Positions 880 through 62,298 of a stretch of DNA of 64,000 nucleotides are shown in pieces (positions within the stretch are counted from its first letter, which is position 1; each line of letters starts with the position of its first letter). Made by a program: the position numbers and the translations under genes. This DNA comes from Deltaproteobacteria bacterium (GTDB lineage Bacteria > Myxococcota_A > UBA9160 > UBA4427): the NCBI GenBank assembly GCA_029261835.1, contig JAJDAO010000031.1:1-64000 (forward strand), in the 5' to 3' direction. The notes beneath the pieces are model-generated. The model was not told the DNA's origin. It saw nothing but the letters and a program-made list of their open reading frames with translations, and ran no database searches.

Positions 880-1881
880 ATGACGACCACGATGCAGAAG
901 TCTGTCGCCACCAGCCCGCAGGCGGGTGACGTCCACGTCAACACGCCGCTTTCCAACTTCGCCACCAAGTTCCTGCAAGATACGGATGCGTTCGTCGCGC
1001 TCCGTGCAATGCCGGGCCTTCCCGTGGCGAAGCAGTCCGACCTCTACTGGGAGTTCAACCCCGACGACTTCCGTCGCGATCAGGCCAAGCGCCGCGCCGA
1101 CGGCACCGAGTCGGCGGGCGCTGACTTCCGCCTGTCAACTTCGCCCTACTTCGCCGATGTCGACGCTCTGCACAAGGACGTGAGCGATCGCCAGCGCGCG
1201 AACCAGGACGAGGGCATCCAGCTCGACCGCACGTCGACCGAGTTCCTGATGCAGCTCATGCTGATTCGTCGCGAGAAGCTCTGGCGCGACGCGTTCTTCG
1301 GTACGGGCCTCTGGGACACAGACGTTGTCGGTACGACCGACTTCGTGAAGTGGGACGCCGCGAGTTCTGATCCGATCCTGAACATCCGCGTCGGTAAGCG
1401 CGTCGTTCAGGGCAAGACTGGCTTCCGGCCGAACAAGCTCGTCATCGGGCGCGCGCCTTACGACGCGATCCTCGACAACGACGCAGTGCTCGACCGCATC
1501 AGCGGCGGAGCCACGACCGCGCTTCCGGCGATGGTCATGCGTCAGCGTCTCGCAGAGCTTCTCGAACTCGACGTGATTCACGTCATGGACGCGATCGAGA
1601 CGACCACTGCGAAGGGCGCCGCGACCGAGGCTCAGGCGTTCATCGGTGGCGACAACGCGCTGCTGTACTACGCGCCGGATGCACTCGCGTTCGGCTCGCC
1701 GACCGCCGGCGCTACGTTCAACTGGACCGGCTTCGTCGGCGCGGATGCCAACGGATCGCGCGTGAAGCGCTTCCGCATGGAAGCTCTCGCAAGCGACCGG
1801 ATCGAAGCCGAGATGGCCTTCGATCACAAGCTCGTCGGCAGCTCCCTCGGGTACTTCTTCAGCGATTGCACTGCTGCCTGA
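880..1881 (+). CDS. Major capsid protein
   Basis: 333 aa; position after scaffold and decoration genes; capsid-like sequence (STEFLMQLMLIRREKLWRDAFF...GRAPYDAILDN). Confidence 0.85.
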   Translation: MTTTMQKSVATSPQAGDVHVNTPLSNFATKFLQDTDAFVALRAMPGLPVAKQSDLYWEFNPDDFRRDQAKRRADGTESAGADFRLSTSPYFADVDALHKDVSDRQRANQDEGIQLDRTSTEFLMQLMLIRREKLWRDAFFGTGLWDTDVVGTTDFVKWDAASSDPILNIRVGKRVVQGKTGFRPNKLVIGRAPYDAILDNDAVLDRISGGATTALPAMVMRQRLAELLELDVIHVMDAIETTTAKGAATEAQAFIGGDNALLYYAPDALAFGSPTAGATFNWTGFVGADANGSRVKRFRMEALASDRIEAEMAFDHKLVGSSLGYFFSDCTAA

Positions 1882-18800: not shown

Positions 18801-19154
18801 ATGGCAAAGCAAAACCTATCGCTCGGCGGACTGCGCACCATCGACGGCGGCCTCGTGAACGCGGCCATCAACGACAAGGTTCGCGCCGCTGTAGCAGACT
18901 GCAAAGACCGTCCCGGCGAAGCGAAGCCGCGTAAAGTCGTCCTGACTCTCGAGATTTGCCCCGTCGCTGATCAGCGCGGCAAGTTCGACAGGCTCTCGAC
19001 GGCCTGCGTCGTCAGCTCGAAGTTCCCCGACATGCGCTCGATCGATTACGACATGCGCGTAACTGCAGAGGGCGACGCAGAGTTCGAAGAGCTTTCGCCT
19101 GAAGACGCCGGGCAAGGCTCGCTCCCGCTGCCCCACGACAAAGGAAAGGCATGA
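18801..19154 (+). CDS. Hypothetical protein
   Basis: ATG 18801 in frame with track ORF 18690..19154; SD upstream. Confidence 0.55.
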   Translation: MAKQNLSLGGLRTIDGGLVNAAINDKVRAAVADCKDRPGEAKPRKVVLTLEICPVADQRGKFDRLSTACVVSSKFPDMRSIDYDMRVTAEGDAEFEELSPEDAGQGSLPLPHDKGKA

Positions 19155-20029
19155 ACATGAACGAAGACGGAATCGAAGGCGCCTTGCGCCACGTCACGGA
19201 ACTCGCTCAAAGCGCGCACGAGCCGAGCGTGACCGTTTGCCCGCAGCTCGAACGCGTGTTCGTTGCGCATAACGGCGAGATGACGTCGCACGAGATCGCG
19301 CCACCGAGGAAGCTCATCGAGCTTCACGGGTTGCGCGACATCATCGCGATCGCTGTTCAGCACAAAGGTAGTTCGCCGGAGGTCTACCACGAAGGAGTCG
19401 ACGACCACTTCGCGCCTGAGTCCGGCGCCGTTTTTGATGGTGGCGCAGTGCGCGTGATCATGAACAGCGAAACGCGCCTCGACCGAGCGAAGATGCAGCT
19501 CCGCCCGAGCCAACTGTTCATGCGCGTTCTGCACATGCACTACAGCCCGAAGACCATGAATGTCGACGAGGCGGTTCGATTGCTGCGCTTCGAGCTTCCT
19601 GTCGCCGGCGTTGACGCGCTCGCGACCTCGCTGCGCAAGATCACGTTCAAGACGACGGCCGAGGTCGAGCAGGGCGCATCGCACGGCTCTTCGACATTCG
19701 GCGAGCGCCTTGAGCGTCTGGTATCGAACGCTGCCGAGGTTCCCGAGTCGATGGAGATCAGCATCCCGGTCTACGCGAACGATCACGAGATCCGCGAACT
19801 CTCGACGGTCAAGCTGAAGCTAGGCGTCTTCCTCGACATGGAGCGCAAGGGCATTCAGATCATGCCGCTTGCCGACGAGATCGACCTCGCGAACGCTGAA
19901 GTTCAAGCTCGGATCGGAGAACACCTTGTCTCCGAGATCGTCAAGTCTGGCGCAGCGGATTCGGTCTCTGTGTTCCATGGCAGCCCGTCGGGTGCTAACT
20001 TCATGAACCCCGACGCGAGGCTTCGCTGA
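19151..20029 (+). CDS. DUF2303-like phage protein (tentative)
   Basis: 292 aa; overall layout of DUF2303 proteins; couples to the upstream gene. Confidence 0.45.
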   Translation: MNMNEDGIEGALRHVTELAQSAHEPSVTVCPQLERVFVAHNGEMTSHEIAPPRKLIELHGLRDIIAIAVQHKGSSPEVYHEGVDDHFAPESGAVFDGGAVRVIMNSETRLDRAKMQLRPSQLFMRVLHMHYSPKTMNVDEAVRLLRFELPVAGVDALATSLRKITFKTTAEVEQGASHGSSTFGERLERLVSNAAEVPESMEISIPVYANDHEIRELSTVKLKLGVFLDMERKGIQIMPLADEIDLANAEVQARIGEHLVSEIVKSGAADSVSVFHGSPSGANFMNPDARLR

Positions 20030-38593: not shown

Positions 38594-40450
38594 ATGGGCC
38601 GGCCCGTTCCATCGCTCACGCTCGAAAAACTCGAGAAAGAGTTCCGTCTCGAAGAAGACGGCAAGTATCCGATTCATGTCGACGGCGACCTCGTCGGCTG
38701 GGCCTACCGATTCGGCCGAGAGTACGGCATCGAGTACGGCGACCTAGCTCTCGCCGCTCAGGAAGGCGTCGACCTGTCACGCGACCTCGACATCGGGCCT
38801 GCGCTCGTTACGGTTCATTCGCACGACGGCAGTCAGGTTCTCGACGTCTTCGAGACGGAGTCGAAGCCGGTTCCATTTTGCACGCGTCTGCCGTTCTTCC
38901 TTCCGGGCGACGCGCCGTTCAGGGTCGACAAGCGCGACGTCGCCTATCGCGACTTCCTGATCGGCGGCGGGCCGACGCTCGACGAAGTGCCCGTCGGCGA
39001 CCTCGATCGCTTCTATCGCTGGGGTCCGAGCCCCGACCCCGAAGACACTGACGCGACCGGCAGCGGTCGCGTGCATGCACATCGCAGCCCGGTCGAGATG
39101 TCGATCCTCGTTCGCGACATCGTGCTTGGTGAGCAGCCGACGCACGAACAAGCGGCCGACCTCGATCGATGGATCGTCGAGCAATGCGCGCGCGGCTACT
39201 GGGCTACGCTCTGGATGAAGCCGCGCACGCTCGAAGACAAGCCGACCTATACGGGCGCCGACGTCGTCAGGATCGACGAGTTCGAGGTCTACGACGCACA
39301 CGCCATGCGCGACTACATTGTGCCCGGCGATGACTTCGAAGGGCCGCCCGGACTCGTTCTCGGCAACGGATACCGCGTCATGCTCGGAGGCTTCTGGGCG
39401 GGATTCGGTCGGCGCCTTCCCGAAGGCGTCGACTGGGATGGTTCCGGCCTCGCCGCCGGCAGCTCGCTGCATATGACCGTCGACTCGCTCGTCTTCGGCG
39501 CCGTGTTCTTCCGCAGCCAGGTTGCGGCCGAAGGCGCGCTGTCGCACTTCCAAGCTGCAAGCTCGTTCTTGTGGGCCGGCGAGAAGTGGCCGAGTCGCGG
39601 GCACGGCTGGCAGCTCGACTGCGGAGCGAAGCTCGCTCCGGTGCTCCGCTACCAGAAGCCGCACGTCACGCACTCGGTCATCCGTTCAATCGAAAAGTCG
39701 CTCAACGTGCTTGCTGCTCAGAACAAGGGCGGCATGCCTGCGCCCGACAACGGCCAGACGATCGAGGGCGGGCACCTGACCTACGACGAGGTCAAGGTCG
39801 CGTTCGAAGATGTGATTCGCGCCGTGCATCCCGAGTGGAGTGACAAGCAGGTTCACGACGCCATCGTTCTCGGCGCGGAAAGCGACGCAGCTTTCTACGT
39901 CGGGATCCTGATCACGGGCCTCGACCATCTCCTGTCGCTTTGGGATGCCTACGGAGTTTGGCAGAAGCACCCCGACGGAGCACCAGCCGGAGCCGACATG
40001 CGACGCCTCGCGATGGAACAGCACAAGTACGCGACGAACTTCCTCGTCAACATCTGCGCCAAGCCGAAGCTCGATGTTCATCAAGGAATCACTGCCGGCA
40101 AGCGCGTTCCGTCGGGCGGAATCTGGAGCGACGCCGGTACGGCGTTCGGCCTTGGCGAAGGCGGCGACGACGGGAACACGATCAAGGGCACGAACATTCG
40201 CTTTGTCGTCGGCGCGCTCGCGCTCTCGGCCACGCGTCACGGAATGCCCGAGATTCTCGAGATTGGCCGCACGACGCTCGGCATCTGCAATCAGGCGAAG
40301 TGGTGGAACGGGAAAGACAAGACCGCCGCGATGCTCGAATGCCTGTGGCCTGTCGCCGCGCACTACGGATGGAACGGCACCTTCAACGTGAAGTCGCCAT
40401 CGATCGTCGATCAAGGCAAGGCCGCTTCGACTGAGGTCGCGATCGTCTGA
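38594..40450 (+). CDS. 618-aa protein of unknown function
   Basis: Long ORF bounded by a structured leader and a terminator; no family recognised by eye. Confidence 0.85.
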   Translation: MGRPVPSLTLEKLEKEFRLEEDGKYPIHVDGDLVGWAYRFGREYGIEYGDLALAAQEGVDLSRDLDIGPALVTVHSHDGSQVLDVFETESKPVPFCTRLPFFLPGDAPFRVDKRDVAYRDFLIGGGPTLDEVPVGDLDRFYRWGPSPDPEDTDATGSGRVHAHRSPVEMSILVRDIVLGEQPTHEQAADLDRWIVEQCARGYWATLWMKPRTLEDKPTYTGADVVRIDEFEVYDAHAMRDYIVPGDDFEGPPGLVLGNGYRVMLGGFWAGFGRRLPEGVDWDGSGLAAGSSLHMTVDSLVFGAVFFRSQVAAEGALSHFQAASSFLWAGEKWPSRGHGWQLDCGAKLAPVLRYQKPHVTHSVIRSIEKSLNVLAAQNKGGMPAPDNGQTIEGGHLTYDEVKVAFEDVIRAVHPEWSDKQVHDAIVLGAESDAAFYVGILITGLDHLLSLWDAYGVWQKHPDGAPAGADMRRLAMEQHKYATNFLVNICAKPKLDVHQGITAGKRVPSGGIWSDAGTAFGLGEGGDDGNTIKGTNIRFVVGALALSATRHGMPEILEIGRTTLGICNQAKWWNGKDKTAAMLECLWPVAAHYGWNGTFNVKSPSIVDQGKAASTEVAIV

Positions 40451-49690: not shown

Positions 49691-49779
49691 AGGCGCCGCG
49701 ACGGGAATCGAACCCGTAACAGTAGGCCCGGCCGCTGCAGACGACCGAGGCCCTTGTTCTACCGTTGAACTACACGGCG
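49691..49779 (-). tRNA. Non-canonical tRNA-like gene; anticodon not assignable; extended anticodon arm, CCA not encoded
   Basis: CGCCGTG/CGCGGCG acceptor, TA, D-arm GTTC/GAAC, T-arm ACGGG-TTCGATT-CCCGT; about 15 nt surplus in 26-48 region. Confidence 0.6.
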
Positions 49780-51446: not shown

Positions 51447-51878
51447 ATGGGCGAACACTACTCGCACCACAAGCCGACGAAGGCGTCGCGGACGAACGTG
51501 CGCAAGATGTGCGAAGCCGGCATCCCGCAAGAAGCGATCGCGACGGTCATGGACTGCGACCCGAAGACGTTGCGCAAGCACTATCGCGACGAACTCGACA
51601 CGGCGAAGACGAAGAAGATCGCGGGAGTCGCTGGCAACCTGATTCGCAAGGCGATGGGCAACGGGCCTCAAGCAACGCTCGCCGCGATCTTCTACCTGAA
51701 GTGTCAGGGCGGCTGGATCGACAAGCAGCACATCGAGCACGGCGGAAGCGTTCGCCTTGCGCCGGCGAATCTCGAGTCTCTCGACAGCGCGCAGCTTCGC
51801 GCGCTCGCGGGCATGGCAGACGCGCTCTTGCCGCCGGCTGCGGCTCCACGCTTCGGCGAGATCGCCGCGAGCAACTAA
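51447..51878 (+). CDS. Terminase small subunit
   Basis: HTH-like N terminus (CEAGIPQEAIATVMDCDPKTLRKHY) directly upstream of terminase large subunit. Confidence 0.75.
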   Translation: MGEHYSHHKPTKASRTNVRKMCEAGIPQEAIATVMDCDPKTLRKHYRDELDTAKTKKIAGVAGNLIRKAMGNGPQATLAAIFYLKCQGGWIDKQHIEHGGSVRLAPANLESLDSAQLRALAGMADALLPPAAAPRFGEIAASN

Positions 51879-51879
51879 C

Positions 51880-53364
51880 GTGCTCGACTTGCGCGCCGAG
51901 CTAGCGCGAGATCCGGCCGGCGTTGCGCTTGCAGCACGCGGCGCACTCGCTCAGCGAAGCCTGCTCGACTTCATCCGTCTGATGTGGCCGGTCATCGAGC
52001 CAGGTCGACGCTTCGTCGAGGGCTGGGCAGTGGAAGCGATCTGCGAGCATCTCGAAGCGGTCACGCGCGGAGAGATCAAGAAGCTGCTGATCAACGTCCC
52101 GCCCGGCTGCATGAAGTCGCTGACGACGAATGTCTTCTGGCCGGCTTGGGAATGGGGGCCGCGCAATCGCCCGAACCTTCGCTACATCTCAAGCGCTTAC
52201 GCGGAGTCGCTGAGCGTTCGCGACAACCGCCGCTGTCGGCAGCTCATCGAGTCAGATGTCTATCAGCACTTGTGGGGCGAGCGATTCGCGTTCGCTGCTG
52301 ATCAAAACGCGAAGCTCAAGATCGAGAACACGAAGCGCGGCTTCAGGATTGCAACGTCGGTCGGCGGAGTGTCGACGGGCGAACGCGGCGACCGCCTGAT
52401 CGTCGATGACCCGCACAACGTCTCGCAGGCTGACAGCGAGGCGATTCGAGAGAGCGCGCTGCAGTGGTTCACGGAGGTCTTGTCCACGCGCACCAATGAC
52501 GACGACTCCGCGTTCGTCGTGATCATGCAGCGCGTTCACGAGCGCGACGTCTCGGGCCTGATCCTCTCGAAAGAACTCGGCTACGAACACCTGATGCTGC
52601 CGATGGAGTTCGAGCAGTCTCGCAAGTGCTCGACGTCGATCGGATTTTCGGACCCTCGAACGAAAGAGGGCGAGCTGCTCTGGCCCGAGCGCTTCTCGCG
52701 CAAGCATCTTGAAGAACATTTGAAGCCGAACCTTCGGGCATGGGGCGGCACTTACGCCGAGGCGGGTCAGCTCCGCCAGCATCCAGTTCCGCGCGGCGGC
52801 GGCATGTTCAAGCGCGATGATTTCGAAATGGTCGACGCGCCACCGAAGGGCGGGCGTCGCGTGCGCGGATGGGACTTCGCGGCGAGCAAAGATCGCGGCG
52901 CCTACACGGCCGGCGTGAAGATGTCGACCGACGGCCGGGGAAACTACTGCATCGAAGACGTGGTTCGAGATCAGCTAAGCCCCGGCGGTGTCGAGGCGTT
53001 GTTCAAGAGCGTTGCCGAGCAGGACGGCAAGACCGTTCCCGTCGACATCCCGCAAGACCCCGGTCAGGCTGGCAAGTTCCAACGCCAGCACTTCACCGGC
53101 CTTCTCGCCGGTTTCGTGGTTCATAGCTCACCGGAGACAGGATCGAAGGAAGACCGAGCGCGCCCGCTTGCGGCGCAGGCGGAGGCTGGAAACCTCTCTC
53201 TCGTTCGCGCACCCTGGAACGACGCCTTCATCAGCGAGGCGATGCTCTTCCCGAACGGTCAGTACAAAGATCAGATCGATGCCGCTTCCCGCGCCTTCTC
53301 TCGACTCGCAACGCCGGCGCGCAGCACAATCAAGGCGGGTGAATCTATGAGGGTCTACGATTGA
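51880..53364 (+). CDS. Terminase large subunit
   Basis: KKLLINVPPGCMKSLTT Walker A, RLIVDDPHN Walker B, RGWDFAASKDRGAYTAG nuclease; GTG 51880. Confidence 0.92.
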   Translation: MLDLRAELARDPAGVALAARGALAQRSLLDFIRLMWPVIEPGRRFVEGWAVEAICEHLEAVTRGEIKKLLINVPPGCMKSLTTNVFWPAWEWGPRNRPNLRYISSAYAESLSVRDNRRCRQLIESDVYQHLWGERFAFAADQNAKLKIENTKRGFRIATSVGGVSTGERGDRLIVDDPHNVSQADSEAIRESALQWFTEVLSTRTNDDDSAFVVIMQRVHERDVSGLILSKELGYEHLMLPMEFEQSRKCSTSIGFSDPRTKEGELLWPERFSRKHLEEHLKPNLRAWGGTYAEAGQLRQHPVPRGGGMFKRDDFEMVDAPPKGGRRVRGWDFAASKDRGAYTAGVKMSTDGRGNYCIEDVVRDQLSPGGVEALFKSVAEQDGKTVPVDIPQDPGQAGKFQRQHFTGLLAGFVVHSSPETGSKEDRARPLAAQAEAGNLSLVRAPWNDAFISEAMLFPNGQYKDQIDAASRAFSRLATPARSTIKAGESMRVYD

Positions 53365-54878
53365 GCATGTTCAAGCGCGGCGGCTTCATCGATAACGTCT
53401 TTCAGTCGATTCGAACGTCTGGCGGTTCGAACAGGAAGACCGCCGGCACCGGCGGAACGAACGTCTACGGCGGGTACGTCGAGCAGCGCGAGAAGTCACC
53501 GGCTCTGCAAGGCCGCGCACGCTACAAGACCTTCAGCGAGATGATCGTCAACACGACGATCCTCGGCGCCGGCGTTCGCCTGCTGTTGAACCTGATCTCG
53601 AAACCGGCGTGGAAGTTTGAGCCCGCGACGGGCGATGACATCGACCTCGAAGAAGCGGACCGACTCGCGCATGAAGTCGAGCGCATCCTGACGGAAGAGA
53701 TGGCGACGCCTTGGCCTCGCATTGTTCGCCGGCTCGGCATGTTCAAGATGCACGGCTTCTCGATTCACGAGTGGACCGCGCGTCGTCGCGATGACGGTAC
53801 GCTCGGCTTCGTCGACATCGAGGTTCGGCCGCAGATCACAATCGAGCGCTGGGATCTCGACGAAGTGGGGACCGTGTTCGGCGTCATGCAGCGCGACCCG
53901 CAGACGCAGCGCGAGAACTACCTACCGCGAAGCCGTCTTGTGTACTTGGTCGACGACGCGATCAACGACAGTCCCGAAGGCCTTGGCCTGCTTCGCCACG
54001 CCGTCGAGGCCGTGCGCAGGCTTGAGCGCTTCGAGCAGCTCGAAGGCTACGCGTTCGAGTCTGACTTGCGCGGCGTGCCTATCGCACGCGCTCCGTTGCA
54101 AGAGCTTCGAGACCAGGTCGAAGCCGGGACGATGAAAAAGGAAGACGCCGACAAGCACATCGAGGGACTCGACAACTTCCTGAAGAAGCACATTTTGAAC
54201 CCGGCTCGCGGTTTGATGCTCGAATCGCAGACCTACGAAAAGGCTGACGAGACGAAGCAGGCGAGCGCGGCGCGCAAGTTCGACATCGAGCTACTGACCG
54301 GCGGGTCGACGTCGCAGGACGCAGTGAACAGAACGATCGAGCGCATCAACCGCGAGGTTGCGCGAGTGCTTGGCGTCGAAGGCATCTTGCTCGGCGAAGG
54401 CGGCACTGGATCGCTGGCGCTGTCGCGCAGCAAGGCCGAGACGCTCGCCGAGATCGTTGACTCTGCGCTCAACGACATCTGCGCTGCAGTGCGACGCGAC
54501 GTGGTGCGCCCGCTTTTCGTGATCAACGGATGGGACGAGAAGCTGATACCTACGGTCAAGACCGAAGCGCTTCAGCATCGCACGCTCGAAGAGATCACGA
54601 CAGCCCTTCGCGACCTTGCCGCAAGCCCGCTCGACCCCGCAGACGAAGCCTTCGGCGAGATTCTTGACCTCGCCGGCCTGACGCGCATTTCGGTCGAAGA
54701 CATCGAAGCGCGAGAAGTGAAGCGCGTCAAAGAGGAAGAGCGCATGCTCGCGGCGCAGCAAGCTGCAGCAGCGGCCGTGGCATCGCAGAGCGAAGCAGAA
54801 CCTAACGCCAAGCCCGACGCAGGTAAGTCGAGCGAGGAAAATCCCGAAGTCGAAACCCCGGAGGGTGACGAGACATGA
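53361..54878 (+). CDS. Portal protein
   Basis: 505 aa after terminase; RLVYLVDDAINDSPEGLGLLRHAVE...; DUF935/portal-like. Confidence 0.85.
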   Translation: MSMFKRGGFIDNVFQSIRTSGGSNRKTAGTGGTNVYGGYVEQREKSPALQGRARYKTFSEMIVNTTILGAGVRLLLNLISKPAWKFEPATGDDIDLEEADRLAHEVERILTEEMATPWPRIVRRLGMFKMHGFSIHEWTARRRDDGTLGFVDIEVRPQITIERWDLDEVGTVFGVMQRDPQTQRENYLPRSRLVYLVDDAINDSPEGLGLLRHAVEAVRRLERFEQLEGYAFESDLRGVPIARAPLQELRDQVEAGTMKKEDADKHIEGLDNFLKKHILNPARGLMLESQTYEKADETKQASAARKFDIELLTGGSTSQDAVNRTIERINREVARVLGVEGILLGEGGTGSLALSRSKAETLAEIVDSALNDICAAVRRDVVRPLFVINGWDEKLIPTVKTEALQHRTLEEITTALRDLAASPLDPADEAFGEILDLAGLTRISVEDIEAREVKRVKEEERMLAAQQAAAAAVASQSEAEPNAKPDAGKSSEENPEVETPEGDET

Positions 54879-55216
54879 CCAAGTGTCTGATGTGTGGGCG
54901 ATCGCCTGAAGGCGAAGCGTCTCAGCAGAAGGAGTACCGCATCCTGACGTGTCGCCGTTGCGCGAACGTCGAGGCGGGCAAGATCACGCGCAGCGACGAC
55001 GAGACTTCAGGGCGAGGCGGCAAGCGCCCGGCCAAGCCGAGCAAGTCGTACATGGACAGCCGCAACGGCGGAAAGCTCGTGCCTGACGACGCGGTTACCC
55101 CGGTCGAAGAAGGCGCGGAAGCCTTCGAGAAGTTCAAGGCGCTTCGCACGCGCACGCTCAAGGCGAAGGGTCGTCCGGGCAACGTCGCAGCATCCACCGA
55201 AGGGAGCGCCGAGTAA
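54875..55216 (+). CDS. Small zinc-binding-like protein
   Basis: CLMCGRSPEG...CRRC. Confidence 0.55.
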   Translation: MTKCLMCGRSPEGEASQQKEYRILTCRRCANVEAGKITRSDDETSGRGGKRPAKPSKSYMDSRNGGKLVPDDAVTPVEEGAEAFEKFKALRTRTLKAKGRPGNVAASTEGSAE

Positions 55217-55641
55217 TGACGACAAGCGTTGCAACGAACACTGCCATCGCAATGGTCGATGCCGCAGCCGACCTCGCTGACGTCGGATCGACCGATGCGA
55301 ACGGCGCGATGGTCTTCTACAGCGGCACGCCGCCTGCGGATGCGCAGACGGCTCTGTCTGGAAACACCGTGCTCGGTACGATCGAGTTCGCAAACCCGGC
55401 CTATGGGGCCGGCGCCGATGCTGCGCCCGGCGGCATCGCGACGCTTCTCAGCGTTCCGATCATTGACGTCGACGGAATCGACGCCACGGCGACGAACACG
55501 TTCGCCCGCTCGTTCGATCGCGATAACAATGTGATCGCGCAGTTCATCGAAGGCACTGACTACACGACCAACGCCGCAGCGTTCGTCACAGGCGCAGAGC
55601 TTGAGCTGACGACGCACTCGCTGACGCAGCCGGAGACGTAG
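55216..55641 (+). CDS. Hypothetical structural-module protein
   Basis: 141 aa, 1-nt overlap with upstream gene. Confidence 0.5.
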   Translation: MTTSVATNTAIAMVDAAADLADVGSTDANGAMVFYSGTPPADAQTALSGNTVLGTIEFANPAYGAGADAAPGGIATLLSVPIIDVDGIDATATNTFARSFDRDNNVIAQFIEGTDYTTNAAAFVTGAELELTTHSLTQPET

Positions 55642-55643
55642 GC

Positions 55644-56960
55644 ATGTCTCGAGTTTTGATCACGGTTCTCGCGCTCTGCGCCTCTGTCTCTGCGCAAAGC
55701 GTCTTGCTCATCTCCGCTGACGACATGGGAATCGAGCGCATGTCGCTCTACGGATTGAGCGCCTCGAACGCCAACACGCCGAACCTCGACGAGCTTGCTC
55801 GGCGCGGAACCGTGATCGAAACTGCGTGGTCTGCGCCTGTGTGTTCCCCGACGCGCGCGATGCTGCTGACCGGCGACTATCCGTTTCACAACGGCGTCGG
55901 GACGATCTTCAGCGCAGAGCCAGGACCGGACTTCATCAAGGGCGCTGAAGTCTTCATCCCTGAAGCCGTTCCGTCGGCCGACGCGGCCCTCTTCGGCAAG
56001 TGGCATCTGAACGACAACGATCCGGCGCTCTACAATCGGCCGATCGATCAAGGCTTCGACATTTGGCAGGGAACGCCGACAGGGTTCCCGACGATCACGG
56101 AGCCGGGAGACCAGAACTACTCGCAGTACATCGAGGCGCTCGCGGTTGCCGGCATGCCGCCTGTCGCGCCTGTCGTCAGCGGATATGCGACGACGCGCAC
56201 GACCGATCAGGCGATCCAGTGGATCGACGCACGCGACGGGCCGTGGTTCATGGCGGTCATGTACAACGCGCCGCACGCGCCCTACCACAAGCCGCCGCAA
56301 GGGCTGCACACGCTACAGCTCGGCGCGGGAGACCCGAACGACGACGCGCCGCTTCACCATCGAGCGATGGTCGAGGCGATGGATACAGAGATCGGGCGAC
56401 TGCTCGAATCGATCGACCTGTCAACGACGCTCGTCATCTTCATCGGCGACAACGGAACGCAAGAGGCGGCCTATGATGGCCCGGCGCAAGTGGGGCACCA
56501 GAAAGGCACACTGTTCGAGGCCGGTATTCGCGTTCCGATGATCGTCGCGGGCGCAGGCGTTAGACGCGGCCGCATCATGGGCGGGTTCGTGTCTGCAGTG
56601 GACGTCTTCCCGACTGTGATCGAAGCATTCGGCGAGACGCCGCCGACCTCCGACGGCATCAGCATTCTGACGCAGCTTCGCTGCGGCCGGCCTTCGCCGA
56701 GGCTTGAGCTTTTCTCTGAGCAGTTCCGCCCGAACAGCGGTCAGGTCTTCTTCGCTGAAGAGGCCGCTAGAATCGGAGACTTCAAGCTCGTGCGAAGGAA
56801 CGTCCACTTCTCGAACCCCGAGCTGATCGGCTCGAAGTTCTTCAACCTGAAGGCAGACCCGAACGAGGAAGTCGACCTTCTTCTAGGTGTTCTCACGCCG
56901 CGCGAGGCGGCTGCGCTCGGCGCCCTGGAAGAGATGCTCGACGGACTCGGCAAGACGTAA
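55644..56960 (+). CDS. Type I (formylglycine) sulfatase with N-terminal signal peptide
   Basis: SADDMG metal site, APVCSPTRAMLLTG FGly signature, GKWHL, FIGDNGTQ, HQKGTLFEAGIRVP; signal peptide MSRVLITVLALCASVSA. Confidence 0.9.
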   Translation: MSRVLITVLALCASVSAQSVLLISADDMGIERMSLYGLSASNANTPNLDELARRGTVIETAWSAPVCSPTRAMLLTGDYPFHNGVGTIFSAEPGPDFIKGAEVFIPEAVPSADAALFGKWHLNDNDPALYNRPIDQGFDIWQGTPTGFPTITEPGDQNYSQYIEALAVAGMPPVAPVVSGYATTRTTDQAIQWIDARDGPWFMAVMYNAPHAPYHKPPQGLHTLQLGAGDPNDDAPLHHRAMVEAMDTEIGRLLESIDLSTTLVIFIGDNGTQEAAYDGPAQVGHQKGTLFEAGIRVPMIVAGAGVRRGRIMGGFVSAVDVFPTVIEAFGETPPTSDGISILTQLRCGRPSPRLELFSEQFRPNSGQVFFAEEAARIGDFKLVRRNVHFSNPELIGSKFFNLKADPNEEVDLLLGVLTPREAAALGALEEMLDGLGKT

Positions 56961-56969
56961 GGGTTACGC

Positions 56970-59609
56970 GTGGCGCTACCGTTTGAAGCTCGCGTCGTAA
57001 GCGGCACGACGCCGACTTCGACAGGAACGAAAGACTTCACGGCGTCGGGCATTACATCAGTGCCGGTCGGCGCGATTGTGATTGCCACGCGCAACACGGC
57101 CGCCGACTCGATCGAGGGCGCCGTCGCGCTCTCGTGGGGCGTGACAGACGGCACCGATGAGTATTGCGGCACCTACTCGATCGAAGACGGCGCGTCGACG
57201 ACGAACGCAAAGAAAGCCGGATCAGACGATCGCGTCGTCTGGGTTCTGAATGCGACGACCGGCGCCGACTTGATCGTCGGCGCGTTCGACTCGTTCATCA
57301 GCGGCGGCATTAGGATCAACTTCACGTCGGTCGTCGGCACGGCGAGAACGATCGGCGTGATCCTGTTCTTTGGCGACGACTGCGACTGCAAGGCGTTCAC
57401 GGTTGCGCCGATGGTCTCAGGCGATACGACCACCGTGACGACGGGTTTCGAAACAGGCTTCGTGCTCGCTAACGCCGTGCCCGATCTCGCCGAGTCACTG
57501 AACGCAGACATGGTCTTTCAGCCATCGATCGCGATCGAGGGCACTGGGAAACAGGTCGTTCAAGTCGGCTTCGCTGAAGACGGCGTAGGTTCTGCGGACT
57601 CGAACGCGACGCACTACTCAGGGATCCTGGGATCAGGCGCCGACTTTGGCGTGTCTCCGATTGGCGCAGGACACGTCGTCTCGATCGATCAATGGAACGC
57701 GACGACCCTGCGGTTCGCTTCTGACGGCGGCGGGATCATTACGCCAACGCCTAGACTCATCGGCCTCGCCGTGCGTCCGTCGACGGCGCAGGTTCAGCTC
57801 GACATCGAAGAGCTGACGCCGACGAGCAACGGCGACGAGGTCTTCACGACAGGGTTCCGCACAGGATTCGCCTACGCCGTTTCGAGCCGGAACACAACCG
57901 GCGACACGACTGAAACGGCAATGATGGTCGGCGTCGGCGGTTCGGATGTTGCCAACCTTGAGCATGTCGCCATGGGCGCGAACGCTCGCGCCGGCGTGAC
58001 GACAACCGAGACCGACTCGGTCTTCGACGAAGCGTTGATTCACACGACGACCGCGAACGGCGCGAACGACCTGATCATCGCCGCGCCAGACGCTCGCGAT
58101 GCGACGACGGTCGACCTCGCTTTCAGCAAGACAGTCGCGACAGCCCGCGTGTATTCGGTCCTGTGGGTTGAAGAGCTTCCGTTCTCTGTCAGCGCGCCGG
58201 CTGCTCTGCCCGCACTCGAATCAGCGGGCACGGTAACGCAGAGATTCAAGGCGAATGCAGCGTCGAGCTTGCCGGCGCTGACGTCGGGCGGCGATGTCGT
58301 CGAGCGGTTCAAGGTGTCGGCGCCGACGACGCTTCCCGCGCTGACATCTGCGGGTGAAGTGACGGTTACGCAGCAAGGCTCAGAGGTCGACGCGCCCGCA
58401 GTCTTGCCCGCGCTCACGTCTGCCGGCGCTGTCGTTCAGAGATTCAAGGCGAGCACTCCCGCCGTTCTTCCGGCTCTGAGTTCGGACGGGAGTGTCGCGC
58501 AACGCTTCAAGGCCACTGCGCCGGCGACTCTGCCGTCACTGTCATCCGCCGGCGCAGTGGTCGAGCGCTTCAAGGTCGATGCTCCGGCGACGCTGCCTGC
58601 GCTAACCAGCTCCGGGAGCGCGATCGCGCGCACGGCTGTCGACAGCGCCGCCATGCTGCCCGCTCTCGAGTCTTCGGGCGCTGTCGCGCAGCGCTTCAAA
58701 GTCAGCGCGTCAGCAGCGCTCCCTGCGCTCATGGCGTCGGGTTCAGTGCAAGCCAGGTTCGCGGTCGAAGCGCCTGCAGTGCTGCCTGCGCTGACGTCGA
58801 GCGGAGCTGTCGCGCAGCGCTTCAGGGCTGCCGTTGCTGCGACGCTCCCCGCGCTCGATTCAGCAGGCGCAGTGTCCGAGCGATTCAAGGTCGACGCGCC
58901 GGCGACGCTTCCTGCGCTCACGAGCGCGGGCTCGGTCTCATCGACTGAGCTGACGACGGTCGACGCGCCTGCAGTGCTTCCGGCGCTGGCTTCTGCGGGC
59001 AGTGTCGCGCAGAGGTTCAAGGCCAGCGCGCCGGCGACCCTGCCGTCGCTTCAATCCGCCGGCGACGTCACGCAGAGGTTCAAGGCGTCGAGCGACGCAA
59101 CGTTGCCGGCGCTGACGTCGAGCGGCACAGTCGCGCAGCGCTCGGCCGTAGACGCAGCCGCGATGCTCCCGTCGCTCACGTCTTCAGGCTCCGTGGTCGA
59201 GCGCTTCAAGGTCAGCGCCCCGGCCGCTCTTCCGGCGCTGACAAGCGCCGGCGAAGTGGCGCTGAAGATCGACGTCAACGCGCTCGCAACCTTGCCAGCC
59301 CTGATCGCTAGCGGAGCTGTCATCCAGCGGTTCAAGGTTGCGGCGCCAGCAGCGCTGCCAGCCATGACGTCGACCGGATCCGTGAGCGTAGACTCAGGCT
59401 TGGTCACAACGATCGAAGAGTGCGTCACACTGCAAGGCGGGCGACTTCTCGTCGCAAACATGGTCGCAGGCCGACTTACGAAAGCAAATCTTGCCGGCGG
59501 GCGAGACGCAGTCGCGAACCTCGAAGGCGGGTCAGCTATGGTGGCAGCGCTGAGCGGCGGGCGCGATCTCGTCGCAGTTCTTCAGGGAAGCCGGAGCCCG
59601 TGCGACTGA
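56970..59609 (+). CDS. Large repeat-containing fibre-like protein
   Basis: 879 aa; 19 LPALTSxG repeats; duplicated N-terminal domain; C-terminal GGRxxVAxL repeats. Confidence 0.75.
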   Translation: MALPFEARVVSGTTPTSTGTKDFTASGITSVPVGAIVIATRNTAADSIEGAVALSWGVTDGTDEYCGTYSIEDGASTTNAKKAGSDDRVVWVLNATTGADLIVGAFDSFISGGIRINFTSVVGTARTIGVILFFGDDCDCKAFTVAPMVSGDTTTVTTGFETGFVLANAVPDLAESLNADMVFQPSIAIEGTGKQVVQVGFAEDGVGSADSNATHYSGILGSGADFGVSPIGAGHVVSIDQWNATTLRFASDGGGIITPTPRLIGLAVRPSTAQVQLDIEELTPTSNGDEVFTTGFRTGFAYAVSSRNTTGDTTETAMMVGVGGSDVANLEHVAMGANARAGVTTTETDSVFDEALIHTTTANGANDLIIAAPDARDATTVDLAFSKTVATARVYSVLWVEELPFSVSAPAALPALESAGTVTQRFKANAASSLPALTSGGDVVERFKVSAPTTLPALTSAGEVTVTQQGSEVDAPAVLPALTSAGAVVQRFKASTPAVLPALSSDGSVAQRFKATAPATLPSLSSAGAVVERFKVDAPATLPALTSSGSAIARTAVDSAAMLPALESSGAVAQRFKVSASAALPALMASGSVQARFAVEAPAVLPALTSSGAVAQRFRAAVAATLPALDSAGAVSERFKVDAPATLPALTSAGSVSSTELTTVDAPAVLPALASAGSVAQRFKASAPATLPSLQSAGDVTQRFKASSDATLPALTSSGTVAQRSAVDAAAMLPSLTSSGSVVERFKVSAPAALPALTSAGEVALKIDVNALATLPALIASGAVIQRFKVAAPAALPAMTSTGSVSVDSGLVTTIEECVTLQGGRLLVANMVAGRLTKANLAGGRDAVANLEGGSAMVAALSGGRDLVAVLQGSRSPCD
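58189..59390 (+). repeat. 19 in-frame repeats of about 63-66 bp (xAPAxLPALTSxGxVxQRFKxS)
   Basis: Counted 19 LPAL/LPSL/LPAM units in the translation. Confidence 0.9.
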
Positions 59610-60019
59610 TGGCAAAGATCGGACAAGACTACACCTTCTACGCAGGCAACAGACTGCAGCTCCATATCCCCGTTGTCGACGAAGACGCTTCGGGATCGCC
59701 GGCGCTCAGCAACCTCGACACCGAGTTTTCTTCGGTCAAGTGGGCACTGTCTCGCTTCGACGCCGAAGGCAACGTGAGCACGACTCCCGTGATCGAGAAG
59801 AAGAGCAATGTCGCGCAGGCCGAGACCGGCGGCAACGAGATCGACTTCAGCAACGATGTAGGAACGAACGACGCAGCCGACGTGCAACTGATCACCGGCG
59901 ACACCGATGCGCTGTCAGGCGACTTCTATCACGAACTTGAAGGCTTCGACTCGGGCGGCCAGTCGATCGTTCTCGCTACAGGGACACTGACCATTCTCCG
60001 CAACGTGGTGAACACCTGA
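59609..60019 (+). CDS. Hypothetical structural protein
   Basis: ATG 59609; MAKIGQDYTFYAGNRLQLHIPVVDEDASG. Confidence 0.55.
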   Translation: MAKIGQDYTFYAGNRLQLHIPVVDEDASGSPALSNLDTEFSSVKWALSRFDAEGNVSTTPVIEKKSNVAQAETGGNEIDFSNDVGTNDAADVQLITGDTDALSGDFYHELEGFDSGGQSIVLATGTLTILRNVVNT

Positions 60020-60525
60020 TGCCGACAGCCATCGCAGTAGGGACGAACAGCTACGCGACCATCATTGAAGCGAACACCTTCCTCGATGACCTGATCTATT
60101 CGGGGAGCTGGGAGTTCCTCGGCGACGACACGAAGACGCGAGCGCTGATCACGGCGTTCACGGACCTGGATCAGCTCGGCCTTGTCGATTCGGCGGGTGT
60201 TGCGATCGTGATCGCCTCGGCGCCGGAAGACATCAAGCGCGCGCAGTCCGAGCTGGCCTTCATTTACACCGAAGATCCCGACGCAGCGGAAGGCGTGACT
60301 TCGGGCTCGACAAATCTGCGCAGGGTCAAGGCCGACACTGTCGAAGTCGAGTTCTTCATCGGGAAGGACGGAACCAGGTTCCCGATTCGCGTCATGCGAA
60401 CAATCTCAAACTATCTGCCCGGCGCGTCTGGTGGTAGTGTTCTGGGATCGCTGGCGACTGGGTCATGCGATGCGTCGAGCTTCGACTCGGCGGACAGGCA
60501 TGGCTTGACCGAGGGCTACGCATGA
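60019..60525 (+). CDS. Head-tail connector/DnaT-like protein
   Basis: SYATIIEANTFLDD...DIKRAQSELAFIY...FFIGKDGTRFPIRVMRTISNYL pattern. Confidence 0.6.
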   Translation: MPTAIAVGTNSYATIIEANTFLDDLIYSGSWEFLGDDTKTRALITAFTDLDQLGLVDSAGVAIVIASAPEDIKRAQSELAFIYTEDPDAAEGVTSGSTNLRRVKADTVEVEFFIGKDGTRFPIRVMRTISNYLPGASGGSVLGSLATGSCDASSFDSADRHGLTEGYA

Positions 60526-61311: not shown

Positions 61312-62298
61312 ATGACGCGCATCGAGAAGATCGACGGATCCGCAGAGCGCATGGCGCTCGCGATCGCCAAGGCGAATCGAGACTTGCGCGCGGCCTTCAT
61401 GTCGGCGGTCTCGTTCATCCGAGACTCGCGCACGATCGATCAGATCGAGCGCCTGCTGATCGACGGAAGGTTCGAGCAGGCGCTCGCCGAGGCGACGGCT
61501 GCGTTCACGGCATTCGCAGACAGCTACGTCGGCGTGATTGTGGTCAACGGAGCGGCCGAGGCCGCGATCGCTTCGCAAGCCCTTCCGGTCTTCGTCGCCT
61601 TCGATCAGACGAACGTGCGCGCCGTGAAGATGATCACGGAGAACCGGCTGCGGTTGATCCGCGAGTTCACGGCAGCGCAGCGCAGCGCGACGCGCGCAGC
61701 GCTGATCGACGGCATAGAGCGAGGGATCAACCCGAGGCAGATGGCGCGCGCGTTCCGCGATTCGATCGGGCTGACCGCGCATCAGGAGCGGGCCGTTCAG
61801 AACTTCCGGCGCCTGCTCATCGAGGGCGATCGAGCGGCGCTTTCGCGGAAGCTCCGGGATCGCCGCTTCGATCCTTCGATCCGCAGGATGCTCGACGGCG
61901 GCAGCGGTCTCTCTTCGGCGCAGATCGAACGCATGGTAGGGCGCTACCGCGAGCGCTCGCTCGCTCACCGAGCGACGACGATCGCGCGCACCGAAGGCCT
62001 GCGTTCAACGCATCAGGGATCAGAGCTACTCTTCGAGCAGCTCGTCGACGAGGGCCGCGTTCAAGCCGATGAGGTCGAAGGCACCTGGGATGACGCGGGC
62101 GATGATCGAGTCCGGGACTTTGAGAGCGGCGCGCAGACGTCGCACAAGAGCATGAACGGCCAGACTCGCCCGATCGGCGTCCCGTTCACCAGCGGAGCCG
62201 GAAGCTCGCTGATGTACCCCGGAGACCCTAACGGGCCGGCGTTCGACACGATCTCGTGCCGATGCCTCGTCTTGCGGCGCTTCAAGCTCCCGAGCTAG
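61312..62298 (+). CDS. Mu F-like minor head protein
   Basis: RATTIARTEGLRSTHQG...WDDAGDDRVRD...GPAFDTISCRCLVLRR. Confidence 0.85.
   Translation: MTRIEKIDGSAERMALAIAKANRDLRAAFMSAVSFIRDSRTIDQIERLLIDGRFEQALAEATAAFTAFADSYVGVIVVNGAAEAAIASQALPVFVAFDQTNVRAVKMITENRLRLIREFTAAQRSATRAALIDGIERGINPRQMARAFRDSIGLTAHQERAVQNFRRLLIEGDRAALSRKLRDRRFDPSIRRMLDGGSGLSSAQIERMVGRYRERSLAHRATTIARTEGLRSTHQGSELLFEQLVDEGRVQADEVEGTWDDAGDDRVRDFESGAQTSHKSMNGQTRPIGVPFTSGAGSSLMYPGDPNGPAFDTISCRCLVLRRFKLPS

Follow-up and report, generated by a model that had tools for sequence, protein, structure and literature searches.

A sulfatase gene paired with a fibre-like gene in the portal-to-adaptor slot of a siphovirus genome

What is a sulfatase gene doing among the structural genes of a tailed phage, and does it belong there? 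The question is raised by a stretch of DNA (the window, meaning the whole stretch that was analysed, 64,000 of the 64,045 bases of its contig) in which a sequence-only reading had placed a complete type I sulfatase at 55644-56960, within a phage structural module, and had proposed a virion-associated or secreted enzyme. The observation is confirmed by our analysis, and the interpretation is partly supported.

The phage genome and its sulfatase

Bases 1-34 of the contig equal bases 64011-64044 and are found nowhere else on it, and an open reading frame that leaves the right end resumes at the left end in the same frame. The contig is a closed, circularly permuted siphovirus genome of ~64,010 bp and, as it closes on itself, a chimera is very unlikely. 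Its annotated parts hold no bacterial genes and the contig carries no integrase; judged from its genes, the phage is a virulent-type siphovirus. Terminase, portal, major capsid protein (MCP), tape measure, lambda-type tail proteins, helicase and primase are annotated, together with a Sak4-like annealing protein, a Cas4-like exonuclease and two DNA methyltransferases. A tRNA-Pro (cgg) lies at 49692-49779 (-), shortly before the packaging genes and on the strand opposite to the annotated phage genes, and two further phage proteins (window 38594-40450, 618 aa; 19151-20029, 292 aa) are without a Pfam or PHROG match. Binning placed the phage together with a metagenome-assembled genome (MAG) rich in sulfatases, and this genome may not be that of its host; among 60 related bacterial genomes the same phage was not found, and one gave a weak portal match.

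The genes on which the argument turns are the following, all on the + strand:

880..1881, +, major head protein (phrog_1005, 9.5e-74)
51868..53364, +, terminase large subunit, TerL (phrog_38, 6.4e-79)
53361..54878, +, Mu-type portal protein, left border of the cassette (PF06074, 5.1e-19; phrog_113, 1.3e-39)
54875..55216, +, ORF113, small CxxC-containing ORF of 113 aa (ORF call; no Pfam or PHROG family match)
55216..55641, +, small virion structural protein of 141 aa (phrog_3758, E 1.2e-16)
55644..56960, +, type I (S1) sulfatase of 438 aa (PF00884, E 1.1e-38; FGly motif C67-SPTR)
56970..59609, +, 879-aa fibre-like protein (repN domain HMM, AF2 model, repeat period)
59609..60019, +, ORF136, Ig-like beta-sandwich, final gene of the cassette, immediately upstream of Ad1 (homologues likewise placed in many relatives)
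60019..60525, +, head-tail adaptor Ad1, right border of the cassette (phrog_477, 1.8e-13)
61312..62298, +, head morphogenesis protein (phrog_3517, 4.7e-81)

The identification of the sulfatase stands. In a Pfam profile search, a check that the sequence-only reading had named, PF00884 (Sulfatase) covers residues 19-330 (profile positions 2-300 of 301) with 133.7 bits against a curated cut-off of 25 bits, and every catalytic residue of the S1 active site is present (D26, D27, C67-S-P-T-R71, K119, H121, H211, D269-N270 and K287). Alignments show these residues to be common to 11 cellular and 16 viral relatives; D26, D27, K119, H121, H211, D269 and K287 are invariant in alignment A1 and N270 is nearly so. 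The fold family, FGly motif, metal ligands, GKWH, DNG, catalytic Lys/His and signal peptide are as in cellular S1 sulfatases, from which the window protein differs in being phage-encoded, in lying in a structural-gene cassette, in sharing no more than 37-43% identity with cellular relatives and in forming a lone deep branch. Among solved structures, phmmer matched a GALNS-type enzyme (7stt, 2.9e-27) and an S1_16 kappa-carrageenan sulfatase (9fo1, 3.7e-27) as its nearest S1 relatives. By family, motifs and complete catalytic set, the protein is predicted to hydrolyse sulfate esters.

In S1 sulfatases, the formation of formylglycine from the active-site cysteine (here C67) needs a formylglycine-generating enzyme (FGE). 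C67-S-P-T-R71 conforms to the C/S-x-P/A-x-R pattern for this conversion. The phage contig carries no FGE-type (PF03781) gene; the co-binned genome, which may not be that of the host, has six FGE-type loci (seven PF03781 matches, two of them from one gene). A signal peptide, named by the sequence-only reading as well, is predicted at residues 1-17 and reads as Sec-type (MSRVLITVLALCASVSA followed by QS, with cleavage between VSA and Q); this and all other signal-peptide calls below were made with a simple heuristic of our own. The sulfatase region occupies residues 19-412, and there is no additional virion-anchoring domain.

The cassette and its fibre-like gene

The start codon of the sulfatase lies 2 bases past the stop of the upstream gene and the next gene begins 9 bases downstream, so that the sulfatase is packed into the structural operon. 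The sequence-only reading was right to place it amid the structural module, and its flanks can now be corrected. Instead of portal/terminase and head-closure genes, the borders are the portal and the head-tail adaptor Ad1, and the sulfatase is one part of a 5.1-kb insert between them that comprises ORF113, the phrog_3758 protein, the sulfatase, the 879-aa repeat protein and ORF136; the TerS gene also lies upstream, along with TerL and the portal.

The relatives allow this insert to be set in context. The portal is 40-46% identical to those of the Roseobacter phages RDJL1, RDJL2 and RDJL6, Ruegeria phage Tedan, Erythrobacter phages R6L and ZS04, Pseudomonas phage KPP23, Shewanella phage S0112 and the Rhizobium RHph phages. 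Xiamenvirus RDJL1/2/6, Tedan, R6L/ZS04, KPP23 and S0112 have genomes of 62-65 kb, similar in size to that of the window phage, and share with it, besides the portal, in most cases TerL, Hc1, head morphogenesis protein and MCP (28-54% identity) in a similar gene order. By tblastn against RDJL1/KPP23-type phages, portal (40-46%) and MCP (28-53%) were recovered in the same order, and the head morphogenesis protein (37-46%) in 6/7 of the related phages compared. These phages differ in that Ad1 directly follows the portal, as in annotated relatives at large, and in having neither the sulfatase nor the 879-aa protein; in the Rhizobium phages only a 70-aa 'head fiber' ORF lies between portal and Ad1. 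One of the latter, RHph_TM3_3_9 (L019/L210), has a gene for an SGNH hydrolase, another esterase-type enzyme, elsewhere in its head module, between the head morphogenesis and protease genes.

Among 80 IMG/VR relatives, chosen by portal alone, portal and Ad1 are adjacent in 28 and separated by an insert in 30, and 22 are not judgeable. Most inserts (25/30) measure 1.5-6.9 kb, and they encode large fibre- or lectin-type proteins (Laminin_G_3, gp80 fibre, YadA head). Homologues of the phrog_3758 protein stand directly behind the portal in several relatives (L130-L133, L146, L148, L151, L154, L170, L195 and L196). The slot, variable across a large siphophage family, appears to be a site at which adhesion and glycan-modifying genes are swapped. 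In one related IMG/VR phage it holds a sulfotransferase (PF13469, E 9.7e-17; L183:6206-7006), so that the slot is associated with sulfate transfer in this phage and with sulfate removal in other relatives. A sulfatase is present in 1/80 of the portal relatives, and across relatives the slot shows no significant enrichment for signal peptides (8/161 vs 20/567, p 0.48); both results count against the explanation that we prefer below.

ORF136 was modelled by AF2 as an Ig-like sandwich (pLDDT 87). Foldseek matched it to a connector chain of phage Bas63 (9mt4_G, TMq 0.56) and to chains of the T5 tail tip (7qg9) and the DT57C baseplate (8hqz; TMq about 0.5), and to many antibody-fold domains too; these matches are suggestive, no more, of a place at the neck or connector. 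A candidate assignment to BppU_N was dropped (E 0.05 in a single member).

The 879-aa protein, described by the sequence-only reading as a repeat-rich, fibre-like neighbour, does adjoin the sulfatase. It consists of a tandem beta domain, repN (about residues 1-400), a 21-residue repeat of nearly constant spacing (LPALTSAGSVxQRFKVxAPAx, about 413-790) and a short C-terminal GGR repeat (LxGGRxxVA). The AF2 model of repN is all-beta, of moderate confidence (pLDDT 76), and structure searches with it gave weak matches only, which counts against our preferred explanation; the fibre role of the protein is a putative one. A repN protein is encoded directly downstream of a sulfatase in at least five other viral contigs (L170, L115, L123, L124 and L125), of which L124 and L125 were found by a repN HMM built without them. 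L115 is a contractile-tailed phage (myovirus) with baseplate and tail-fibre genes, and hence the pair crosses phage types. repN is absent from the 376 other genomes of the phylum, its sole occurrence among the 377 being this phage contig, and no relatives of it were found in cultured phages. As the pair recurs and repN is confined to phages, the linkage is hard to explain by chance.

The closest parallel in gene order is L170 (IMGVR_UViG_3300030397_000415), an independent viral contig selected by its portal rather than by its sulfatase, in which portal, phrog_3758 homologue, sulfatase (HMM E 1e-74), an 826-aa repN protein, an ORF136 homologue and Ad1 follow one another. Its FGly motif is degenerate (CANTR), which counts against our preferred explanation. 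Export signals vary among the paired sulfatases: a signal peptide is called in the window protein and L115 and a lipobox-type signal in L170 and L125; no signal peptide is called in L123 or L124, although the N-terminus of L123 is hydrophobic, and this too counts against our preferred explanation. Taken by gene content, the unit looks like the sulfatase and the fibre-like gene together rather than the sulfatase alone. What is new here is that a sulfatase gene and a fibre-like gene recur as a pair in a slot of variable content; glycan-active enzymes that phages encode in association with adhesion genes are a kind already known.

Ancestry and other viral sulfatases

In phylogenies the window sulfatase forms a long lone branch, with Planctomycetota-type secreted sulfatases as its nearest neighbours (36-43% identity). 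An origin from the co-binned bacterium was ruled out, since the sulfatases of the MAG itself branch elsewhere. The GC content and codon use of the gene equal those of the other phage genes, which argues for an old resident and not a recent passenger. The viral sulfatases may have had one origin or several: topology tests gave a p-AU of 0.07 for the window protein and L170 as one clade, and the grouping of window protein and L115 was not rejected (0.46).

A second clade of viral sulfatases comprises L117-L122, L126 and L127 plus L128/L129 (SH-aLRT 98-100). Their active sites are intact apart from that of the shortened L126. On contigs that include terminase and portal genes the sulfatase gene lies close to them, the portal being phrog_156 in L117 and L127. 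No signal peptide was found in the second-clade sulfatases examined. This lineage could be virion-borne, and on these sequence features its members would be better candidates for a virion enzyme than the window protein.

Cultured phages offered no convincing counterpart. The 17 INPHARED matches are weak (<=36% identity); the full-length match L020 (MT835490.1, 'Bacteriophage sp.') proved to be bacterial DNA, with transporters, FtsX and a radical-SAM/SPASM gene; among the remaining matches, some records are plainly bacterial contigs to judge by their names. The L020 record calls for caution when 'phage' sulfatases are counted. Phrase searches of the literature, in which few subscription papers were covered, returned nothing on a phage or viral sulfatase, in agreement with the sequence-only reading, which knew of no characterised example in a phage structural module. 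The word itself has been applied to soxB in a virome (PMC7940616), and, according to PMC10132071, a gene of T4 bears the annotation iduronate sulfatase.

A possible role at the host surface

The explanation we prefer, at close to even confidence, is that of an exported enzyme that would desulfate a host-surface glycan held by the fibre and so act in receptor destruction or in the clearing of sulfated slime. The sulfatase would be produced along with the structural genes, C67 would be converted to formylglycine by the FGE of the host, and the Sec signal peptide would direct the enzyme into the periplasm or onto the cell surface. At that site, and in the surrounding medium once the cell has lysed, it would remove sulfate esters from host-surface or EPS glycan; as the paired fibre would grip that same glycan, desulfation would free progeny from debris and capsule and prevent re-adsorption. 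Desulfation of capsule, EPS or another glycan is plausible. In favour of this explanation stand the complete catalytic set, the signal peptides and lipobox signals, the FGE-type loci of the co-binned genome, the gene order shared with L170, the recurrent repN partner and its restriction to phages, the fibre- or lectin-type occupants of the slot in relatives, the fold of ORF136, the phage-like codon use and the precedent in T5 described next. A bolder proposal, which we make tentatively, is that the pair is a new module that moves between phages: a fibre holding sulfated glycan together with a desulfating enzyme that is exported, acquired by unrelated phages as a receptor-destroying system.

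The proposed role may be likened to that of a receptor-destroying enzyme and to the arrangement in T5, where llp, the gene of an exported receptor-blocking protein, lies beside oad, the gene of the receptor-binding protein (PMC9586334, PMC4728585). Here a phage protein with a predicted export signal is encoded beside a putative receptor-binding gene, and the proposed goal, as in T5, is to avoid re-adsorption. Llp, however, is a small lipoprotein and obstructs a receptor that is itself a protein, whereas the window protein is an enzyme with a proposed glycan target, and no Pfam or PHROG match pointed to Llp/Cor homology. Phage tailspike depolymerases and esterases that act on capsule or EPS are likewise carbohydrate-active enzymes linked to adhesion genes, but they are spike domains without a signal peptide, whereas the window protein is a separate, predicted-exported enzyme of different chemistry.

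Alternatively, the enzyme might be carried in or on the particle, for example on a neck fibre formed by the 879-aa protein, and strip sulfate from capsule or EPS at entry. The position of the gene between portal and adaptor, the adjoining fibre partner and the resemblance of ORF136 to phage connector Ig domains speak for this, as does the clade of L117-L122 and L127, encoded near terminase/portal genes without a signal peptide, as expected for cytoplasmic assembly. Siphovirus virions do assemble in the cytoplasm, and the Sec signal peptide of the window protein therefore makes its incorporation less likely; it also has no extra virion-anchoring domain, and the sulfatases of L170 and L125 look like lipoproteins. 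We thus regard a virion enzyme as unlikely but worth keeping in view. Of the two options left by the sequence-only reading, 'secreted' fits better, two relatives being of lipoprotein type, and 'virion-associated' does not hold up well.

Somewhat less likely still is an auxiliary metabolic gene that helps the infected host to scavenge more sulfated polysaccharide or sulfate and has no part in adsorption. Precedents exist in sulfatases counted among the auxiliary genes of potential prophage regions in fish-gut metagenomes (PMC11077953) and in FGE genes of Pseudoalteromonas phages (PMC10232697). The co-binned genome is also sulfatase-rich (37 PF00884 matches, that of the window included), which may be read either way, as a host already rich in such enzymes would gain little from one more. 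Against this role, the gene sits within the structural module, away from metabolic genes, and in six viral contigs a sulfatase gene is linked to one of fibre type.

The substrate could also be another ester, since FGly-dependent phosphonate and phosphodiester hydrolases have the same fold and motif as S1 sulfatases. Matches in that direction are weak (PehA, NCBIfam 7e-19 and far below its 900-bit cut-off; the phosphonate monoester hydrolase structures 2w8s/2vqr; a Pfam phosphodiesterase family at 5e-6), and among solved structures the best relatives are sulfatases that act on polysaccharides and glycosaminoglycans; we hold a phosphodiester or phosphonate substrate to be improbable. An assembly chimera, a concern of the sequence-only reading, or a decaying passenger gene might be suspected from a co-binned MAG with many sulfatases, and is refuted for practical purposes by the closed circle, the same gene order in L170, the intact active site, the phage-like codon use and a long lone branch unallied to the MAG's own sulfatases.

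Aquatic environments abound in sulfated polysaccharides, as do the surfaces of many microbes that live in them, and it is chiefly by sulfatases that these glycans are opened. If phages have exported sulfatases paired with fibres, they would take a direct part in the remodelling of sulfated glycans, and sulfation may serve as a receptor feature. The module, if our explanation is true, would be a bacteriophage counterpart of viral receptor-destroying enzymes, and the sulfotransferase in the slot of one relative raises the prospect of a contest in both directions over the sulfation state of the host coat. The recurrence of the pair in partly unrelated uncultured viruses suggests that some viruses alter the sulfated sugar coats of the cells they infect.
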